From Candidatus Aminicenantota bacterium (GTDB taxonomy: Bacteria; Acidobacteriota; Aminicenantia; S016-38): DNA of 64,000 nucleotides. Positions 61,590-63,392 of this stretch are shown one piece after another. The DNA lies in assembly GCA_027068075.1 (NCBI GenBank), contig JAMOUJ010000005.1, forward strand, positions 650,162 through 714,161, written 5' to 3'. The notes beneath the pieces were generated by a model. The model made no database searches and had not been told where the DNA came from. It saw only the letters and a list, made by a program, of their open reading frames with translations. Positions within the stretch are counted from its first letter, which is position 1; every line of letters begins with the position of its first letter. Both the position numbers and the translations under genes were made by a program.

Positions 61590-62522
61590 TCAACGGAAAA
61601 GTTCGCTTATTGACCTTTCCTGATGAACTCTTATGATGGCTTCCCCGATCAGGGGAGCTATGTCCAGAACTTCTATTTTACCACATTCCTGGGCTTCCCT
61701 GGAGAGTTGAATGGTGTTGGTAACCACCAGTTTTTTTATGGGGGAATTTTTTATCCTTTCCACCGCCGGAGGGGACAGGACGGGATGGGTGATGGCGGCG
61801 TAAACCTCCGAGGCTCCGGCCCTGAGGATGGCCTCGGCGGCCTTTACCAGGGTTCCAGCGGTGTCCACTATGTCGTCAATTATAATGGCCCTTTTCCTCT
61901 CCACATCTCCCACCACCTGGATTATTTCCGCCTCGTTGGCCCTCTTTCTCCTTTTGAAGAGTATGGCAAAGGGGGCGGAGAGCCTCTTGGCCATTTCCAT
62001 GGCCCTCTGGGCTCCCCCGGCGTCCGGCGAAATAACCATTATGTCCTTGTGGTTTTTAAAGTAATCTACGAAAAGGGGCAGGGCGGTGAGGTGGTCCACC
62101 GGTATGTAGAAGAACCCCTGAATCTGGCCGGCGTGAAGGTCCACGGTGATGATTCGGGAGGCCCCCATTTTTTCCATGAGGTCCGCCACCACCCTGGCGG
62201 ATATGGGGACCCTGGGTTTGTCCTTTCTGTCCTGGCGGGCGTATCCGAAATACGGGATTACCAGGTTTATTCGTCTGGCCGAGGCCCTGCGCAGCGCATC
62301 GGTGGCCAACAGGGTTTCCATTATGTGGAAGTTGGCGTCCCTGGATGTGGACTGGATGAAGAAAACATCCTTTCCCCGGACATTCTCCCGGATCTGAACA
62401 TAAATTTCACCGTCCTTAAACCTGGTAAGTTCCACCTCTCCCAGGTTTATACCCAGGTTTTCCACCACCTTCCTGGCCAGGGGAAGGTTGGAACTTCCGG
62501 AAAAGACCACGAGGTTTTCCAT
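61590..62522 (-). CDS. prs: Ribose-phosphate pyrophosphokinase
   Basis: Prs makes PRPP for nucleotide, His and Trp synthesis. From ATG 62522 the protein has 310 residues and starts ENLVVFSGSSNLPLARKV. It carries YFGYARQDRKDKPRVPISA, the DLHAGQIQGFF loop and the PRPP loop IIDDIVDTAGTLVKA. A longer in-frame start would run into the tRNA gene. The ATG is only 9 nt after the tRNA-Gln CCA, with leader CAAAAAAAC and no Shine-Dalgarno. Confidence 0.95.
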   Translation of the reverse strand: MENLVVFSGSSNLPLARKVVENLGINLGEVELTRFKDGEIYVQIRENVRGKDVFFIQSTSRDANFHIMETLLATDALRRASARRINLVIPYFGYARQDRKDKPRVPISARVVADLMEKMGASRIITVDLHAGQIQGFFYIPVDHLTALPLFVDYFKNHKDIMVISPDAGGAQRAMEMAKRLSAPFAILFKRRKRANEAEIIQVVGDVERKRAIIIDDIVDTAGTLVKAAEAILRAGASEVYAAITHPVLSPPAVERIKNSPIKKLVVTNTIQLSREAQECGKIEVLDIAPLIGEAIIRVHQERSISELFR

Positions 62523-62531
62523 GTTTTTTTG

Positions 62532-62607
62532 TGGCTGGGGAGGGAGGACTCGAACCTCCAAATGGCGGATCCAAAGTCCGCTGCCTTGCCTGTTTGGCTA
62601 CTCCCCA
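62532..62607 (-). tRNA. trnQ: tRNA-Gln (TTG anticodon), CCA encoded
   Basis: The gene reads on the minus strand from 62607 to 62532 (76 nt). The acceptor TGGGGAG pairs with CTCCCCA, with discriminator G and CCA. The anticodon stem GCGGA/TCCGC encloses loop CTTTGGA, giving anticodon TTG. The T arm is GGAGG-TTCGAGT-CCTCC. Its first 10 nt overlap the last codons and stop of ispE, and prs starts 9 nt after it. The order ispE-tRNA-Gln-prs-rplY-pth is known from other bacteria. Confidence 0.95.
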
Positions 62608-63392
62608 ATTAAAGTGGATTGATATTCTACAAAGGGGACGAAGTTAACCACCCACTTCCTCCCGGAGGAAATTTTACCATAAAAAGACCTGGCTTCGGAT
62701 ACTTCAGCGAAGGTTTTGAAAAAACATGACCCGCTCCCGCTCAATTCCATTCCCCATTCCCGAAACTTGTGGAGTTCAGGGTGGAGGGAGAGCAGGGCTG
62801 GGAGAAGGTGGTTGGAGTAGGGGGTAAAGTCAAAGCCTTTTTCTCTCAATTTGTCGTATTCTTCGTAAATTTTCGCAGTGGAAACTTCCAGGCCGGGGTC
62901 CACCACCACCGCTACCCCGGGAAGGTCCTTCAAGGGCTGGAGTTTTTCTCCTATGCCCTCCACCTTTACCCTACCCCCCAGGAGAAAAAAGGGAACATCG
63001 GCCCCCAGTTCCACCGCCATGGAAAGGAGGACTTCCATGGTCAGGTCCGGGGCGAAGAGTTTTCCGAGGGCAAGAAGCGTGGCCGCCGCGTCTGAACTTC
63101 CACCTCCCAGGCCCCTCCCCGGGGGAATCCTCTTGTGGAGGTGGATCTTCACCGGTTCCGCCCCGATTTTTTCCCTGAAGAGGCGGAAGGCCCTGGCCAC
63201 CAGGTTTTCTTCCCCGCAGGGCACCGGTTCTCCGCTACAGGCCAGGATAAACCGGGGGCTCCTTTCAACGGTGAGTTCGTCCCTCAGGTCCACCGTTTGA
63301 AGTTCCGATTCTACGAGGTGGTACCCGTCGCTTCTTTTTCCCCTTATCCGAAGATAAAGGTTTATTTTTGCCGCCGGACTAACCTTGAGCAT
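62598..63392 (-). CDS. ispE: 4-diphosphocytidyl-2-C-methyl-D-erythritol kinase
   Basis: IspE is the fourth step of the MEP isoprenoid pathway. From ATG 63392 the 264-residue protein begins MLKVSPAAKINLYLRI. It has the GHMP kinase loop IPPGRGLGGGSSDAAATL and the final loop MELSGSGSCFF. Fifty upstream in-frame codons exist but lack family sequence and overlap the lipoprotein gene. Its TAG (62600-62598) is inside tRNA-Gln. Confidence 0.94.
   Translation of the reverse strand: MLKVSPAAKINLYLRIRGKRSDGYHLVESELQTVDLRDELTVERSPRFILACSGEPVPCGEENLVARAFRLFREKIGAEPVKIHLHKRIPPGRGLGGGSSDAAATLLALGKLFAPDLTMEVLLSMAVELGADVPFFLLGGRVKVEGIGEKLQPLKDLPGVAVVVDPGLEVSTAKIYEEYDKLREKGFDFTPYSNHLLPALLSLHPELHKFREWGMELSGSGSCFFKTFAEVSEARSFYGKISSGRKWVVNFVPFVEYQSTLIGE

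Follow-up and report, generated by a model that had tools for sequence, protein, structure and literature searches.

The isoprenoid gene ispE and the tRNA-Gln(UUG) gene trnQ overlap by 10 nt on the minus strand of the 64,000-nucleotide stretch of Aminicenantia DNA analysed here (the window), so that the ispE stop codon TAG is at the same time U8-A9-G10 of the tRNA, and the two genes run into each other in 75 of 78 genomes of the class. Compared across genomes, this overlap looks like a real, old and tight packing of genes, not a proven switch. Its best explanation – one that we hold to be probable, though well short of certain – is an mRNA–tRNA overlap locked in place by constraint.

The ispE–trnQ junction

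The ispE gene (62598–63392, minus strand) extends from an ATG at 63392 to a TAG at 62600–62598 and encodes a 4-diphosphocytidyl-2-C-methyl-D-erythritol kinase of 264 residues. The nearest PDB sequence matches of this product are IspE chains, it passes the TIGR00154 cut-off as the sole copy found by profile search of the genome, and its AlphaFold model (mean pLDDT 94.8) matches IspE structures in Foldseek.

The tRNA-Gln(UUG) gene (62532–62607, minus strand), found by ARAGORN and with Rfam RF00005 and present as a single copy in the genome's tRNA inventory, begins TGGGGAGTAGCC and is well formed, with U1-A72, a 7-bp acceptor stem and an encoded CCA reaching 62532 (63.1 bits). It is the only one of the 43 tRNAs of the genome with the anticodon UUG and hence, by anticodon, the only reader of CAA, a separate tRNA-Gln(CUG) serving CAG; by decoding rules, therefore, the cell should be unable to do without the maturation of this copy.

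Translation of the window sequence gives the 3′ end of ispE as ...TCC ACT TTA ATT GGG GAG TAG, in which the third base of ATT is U1 of the tRNA (62607). The shared segment (62598–62607, minus strand) thus comprises tRNA positions 1–10, namely the final base of the Ile codon ATT followed by GGG, GAG and the stop codon (62598–62600). A preliminary description of this DNA, which had placed the TAG at tRNA positions 8–10 with 10 nt in common, was correct on this point, as ARAGORN, Rfam and the translation concur. It had also named a different tRNA 5′ end as a way in which the overlap might dissolve; tRNA ends are predictions and the genomes drafts, yet both programs put this end at 62607, and a shift by one base would leave the stop inside the tRNA. 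In this genome, then, the 3′ end of a same-strand protein ORF covers part of a tRNA gene, whereas in 26 relatives, belonging to families f2, f5 and f9, the ORF stays open through the complete tRNA.

The surroundings are equally compact. The same-strand run reads alaS ... ispE-trnQ-prs-rplY-pth-rpsF, with an uncharacterised ORF overlapping the start of ispE and, further upstream, more same-strand genes, one of which reads as alaS. Downstream, prs, for ribose-phosphate pyrophosphokinase (61590–62522, minus strand), begins 10 nt past the CCA end of the tRNA, after a 9-nt spacer, CAAAAAAAC (62523–62531, minus strand), that holds no Shine-Dalgarno-like sequence. All seven genomes of the source family have the prs start 7–11 nt after the tRNA, again with no Shine-Dalgarno-like sequence, a distance so short that a prs mRNA released by 3′ processing of the tRNA would have next to no leader.

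Tight spacing between coding sequences and tRNA genes is frequent in the source genome. A second stop codon is shared with a tRNA where the TAG of an HU-like gene occupies positions −1 to +2 of tRNA-Val(GAC) (L158:1517–1519, minus strand; G000:C9, about 40516), and would be split into T|AG by RNase P; the arrangement recurs in six of six family genomes checked, including L269, L270, L271, L273 and L274. The stop of a peptidase-T-like gene, in turn, lies 1–2 nt before a tRNA-Arg(CCG) (L006:1574–1579, minus strand).

Conservation in Aminicenantia and beyond

The comparison of the junction among relatives that the preliminary description had proposed covered 54 class genomes and 29 loci of family f7, which, as five of the latter are repeats, amount to 78 genomes; the one-base offset that ARAGORN shows at some 5′ ends was corrected for tRNA-Gln. 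The genes are separate in only three. In 48 genomes the stop is a TAG at tRNA positions 8–10, in one it lies further inside the tRNA, and in the 26 fully nested cases it follows 3–66 nt past the tRNA (L016, L017, L019, L020, L024, L025, L028, L029, L031, L033, L035, L037, L171, L172, L175, L176, L179, L180, L183–L185, L188–L190, L192 and L193). Many of the nested frames of family f5 end in a TGA that overlaps the prs start codon (ATGA). Every overlapping genome of the class, including all seven of the source family, which also share the TAG, has tRNA position 1 as a third codon base, and an identical phase in every overlap is most simply a single inherited arrangement.

Outside the class, 44 of 48 ispE–trnQ junctions show no overlap, in a survey that is small beyond the Acidobacteriota. 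The four that do (L043, L046, L057 and L137) come from two Deltaproteobacteria MAGs, one Mariprofundales MAG and one other acidobacterial lineage, and apparently represent independent origins. Judged by these comparisons, the overlap in Aminicenantia is more than chance.

On an IspE tree from which the tRNA-encoded part was excluded, presence or absence of the overlap requires at least three changes, outgroup included, and stop states change at least six times within the class. Stops upstream of the tRNA arise in two lineages, f6 and f8, and two members of one genus, G027 and G029, differ, one having the TAG and the other full nesting. Such upstream stops and repeated changes of state are what would be expected if the stop position were loosely constrained.

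Why the stop codon falls inside the tRNA

The last helix of the protein is predicted to end about where the tRNA begins. In the AlphaFold model the final helix of IspE consists of residues 254–261, encoded at 62610–62633 (minus strand); the codon of residue 261, TTA (62612–62610), still lies wholly outside the tRNA and is followed directly by the one shared with it, and the C-terminal block of residues is modelled with low confidence (pLDDT 63). The helix carries Tyr257, invariant in a set of 25 sequences, within a motif R-x-x-Y-x-x-x-[hydrophobic] that Aminicenantia have in common with other Acidobacteriota. Outgroup Acidobacteriota show the same motif even though their tRNA sits further off. 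With the helix reaching the tRNA boundary, an earlier stop would nearly always cut a conserved element. The 51 overlapping genomes in which this was counted have on average 0.9 spare codons beyond Tyr+4 and 0.06 routes in them by which a single base change would yield a nonsense codon, and an earlier stop thus has almost no mutational target.

The tRNA, for its part, offers a stop in just this phase. U8-A9-G10 occurs in at least 15 of the 43 tRNAs of the genome, an approximate count that would rise if the one-base 5′ offsets left by ARAGORN in some of them were corrected. In 46 of 48 outgroup tRNA-Gln genes, only an A at position 9 closes this reading phase; whether ispE stops at positions 8–10 or reads on thus hinges largely on tRNA base 9.

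These observations suggest a simple history. In an ancestor of Aminicenantia, ispE and trnQ would have been packed together until the end of the C-terminal helix abutted tRNA position 1, at which point the stop codon would have been forced into the tRNA, where U8-A9-G10 lay ready-made; wherever position 9 later changed to C or G, the frame would have read on through the tRNA. Taken with the structural model, a packing constraint of this kind suffices for both the overlap and its conservation. Selection maintaining the overlap itself was considered and set aside as not forced, mutational room for an earlier stop being nearly nil. Two f7 genomes, L239 and L240, fit less well with a pure lack of room, as they have longer in-frame IspE tails, several codons after Tyr+4, and still end in the TAG at 8–10 in the same phase.

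A promoter inside ispE?

The main rival to the packing explanation is that trnQ, perhaps together with prs, is made mainly from a promoter of its own in the 3′ end of ispE. Most tRNA would then derive from RNAs that lack the ispE frame, and the long ispE RNA would give little tRNA. We consider this possible, but on the whole unlikely.

What lends it weight is the habit of the genome: many other tRNA genes (among L001–L007 and L149–L168 of genome G000) have strong promoters of the sigma70 type, TTGACA/TATAAT, which match 9–12 of 12 consensus positions and whose −10 element ends 7–12 nt before the tRNA. A search with a genome-specific model derived from these promoters returned, as the best site of its kind within ispE, a weak candidate at 62619–62647 (minus strand), composed of TTAACT (62647–62642), a 17-nt spacer and TATCAA (62624–62619), whose −10 ends 11 nt ahead of the first tRNA base, a customary distance. 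In several f5 genomes the matching place is taken by CTGACC-18-TATTAT.

The candidate, however, matches only 8 of 12 positions, with a scan-wide P of about 0.23, a generic sigma70 scan left the tRNA-proximal part of ispE without a hit, and families f4, f7, f8 and f9 yielded no good counterpart. Moreover, the match is confounded by the protein: codons for the conserved motif T-x-x-R-x-x-Y of IspE are themselves prone to spell AC...TA(T/C) with the spacing of a promoter; the −35/−10 similarity was accordingly rejected as proof of a promoter. A tRNA promoter within ispE, which the preliminary description had listed as a possible refutation of its reading, thus has a candidate, at the usual distance but a weak match to the consensus.

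Translation, tRNA processing and ribosome rescue

With almost no spacing between the genes, some co-transcription is likely, and the ispE-trnQ-prs run is most probably transcribed together at least in part. On such an RNA, cleavage by RNase P at the tRNA 5′ end (62608/62607) would leave an ispE message ending ...ACU UUA AU, devoid of a stop and with its last codon split, to which the addition of A residues could not restore a stop. The proposal that tRNA processing generates a non-stop ispE mRNA is, in this sense, borne out as a consequence of the geometry.

The further proposal that one transcript cannot give both the tRNA and normal termination of IspE proved too strong, since translation can precede cleavage. 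RNA polymerase passes the stop codon about 55–60 nt ahead of the end of the 3′ acceptor strand, on which folding of the tRNA depends, and a ribosome that follows the polymerase closely can therefore finish before the tRNA has folded and been cut out. IspE would then be made mainly from nascent or still unprocessed RNA, after which RNase P would free the tRNA and so end the life of that ispE message; the non-stop fragment would be left to tmRNA/SmpB and decay, and late ribosomes on cut RNA would need rescue. The means for this are encoded in the genome, which has SmpB and a tmRNA (tag ANDFALAA), the latter scoring over the cut-off in 38 of 40 genomes. ArfB was not found among proteins with an RF-1 domain, of which this genome has only two, both of release-factor length. 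Of the expectation that separate promoters or ribosome rescue would be required, what stands is that a rescue system and a weak internal promoter candidate are present.

A regulatory reading goes further, holding that each RNA serves either as an IspE message or as a source of tRNA-Gln and a prs message, so that tRNA maturation sets the level of IspE. The geometry of the junction, the class-wide overlap in a single phase, the full nesting in 26 genomes and the short, Shine-Dalgarno-free distance to prs in the source family would all suit it. We nonetheless judge it improbable: unlike SelB and tRNA-Sec, IspE and tRNA-Gln are not known to us to be related in function, genomes of one genus flip between TAG and full nesting, two lineages lack the overlap, and its conservation is already accounted for by the packing constraint. 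The negative link between isoprenoid synthesis and tRNA maturation put forward in the preliminary description draws no support from these data; packing at the helix end explains the conservation without it.

Quite improbable, in our estimate, is the boldest version, in which, across Aminicenantia, the ispE message is as a matter of course destroyed or shortened by excision of tRNA-Gln, much IspE is finished with no normal stop – by tmRNA-type rescue or, in the 26 nested genomes, by read-through into a tRNA-encoded tail – and competition between ribosome and RNase P sets IspE dosage. That the junction is an artefact – of misassembly, of a pseudogene resembling a tRNA or of a misplaced tRNA 5′ end – is scarcely credible: the genome is a draft of nine contigs, and a pairing of U-1 with G73, conceivable in principle, would shift the 5′ end by one, but the identical junction recurs in dozens of independent assemblies, the tRNA is well formed, single-copy and the sole CAA reader, and the shift would keep the stop within it.

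Relation to known systems

In the library of papers searched, none dealt with the junction of ispE, tRNA-Gln and prs. If transcript data were to confirm a single RNA, sequence would be shared between an isoprenoid gene and a seemingly indispensable tRNA throughout a bacterial class, fully nested genomes included. It could then be asked directly how often mRNAs that lose their stop codon to tRNA processing are translated in bacteria, and how far ribosome rescue is relied on. On a practical level, annotation pipelines that cut coding sequences back where a tRNA begins may put the ends of such genes in the wrong place.

The arrangement recalls the tRNA punctuation of mitochondria, where protein genes flank the tRNAs of polycistronic RNAs almost without spacing. 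Here, too, spacing to the protein genes is near zero or below it – a 10-nt overlap with ispE on one side, prs without a Shine-Dalgarno sequence 10 nt on at the other, with the weak promoter candidate inside ispE – and tRNA excision would set the mRNA ends. In mitochondria, however, polyadenylation can complete an incomplete stop codon, which is not feasible for the ispE RNA. Where a bacterial operon carries a tRNA among its protein genes, as in the mRNA–tRNA transcripts of Escherichia coli, the tRNA likewise has to be cut from the message with RNase P; in such operons, however, the upstream stop codon as a rule lies ahead of the tRNA and stays with its message, whereas ispE would lose it.

The closest parallel is the tRNA-Sec gene selC, which is nested in, or partly overlaps, selB in Alphaproteobacteria, Gammaproteobacteria (Dyella and Luteibacter) and Nitrospirae, and which, as far as the author of that description knew, was the first case of a tRNA nested within a bacterial reading frame (Mukai 2021, PMC8124441). 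That study proposed a non-stop mRNA after RNase P cleavage and a leaderless downstream mRNA, with alternative expression of protein or tRNA from one transcript as a hypothesis only (PMC8124441). Both systems place a tRNA gene on the same strand within the 3′ end of an ORF, as full nesting or as partial overlap with the stop inside the tRNA; in both, the ORF stop can overlap the start of the next gene, and the predicted products of processing are alike. They differ in that ispE/trnQ combines an elongator tRNA, the sole CAA reader, with a functionally unrelated core metabolic gene, in that its stop lies at tRNA positions 8–10 as against 46–48, and in that it is conserved over a whole class, with evidence for a packing constraint in place of a dosage logic. 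The ispE–trnQ junction is, then, a further case of mRNA–tRNA overlap of the selB/selC type, with another tRNA, another gene, a class-wide distribution and a structural reason.
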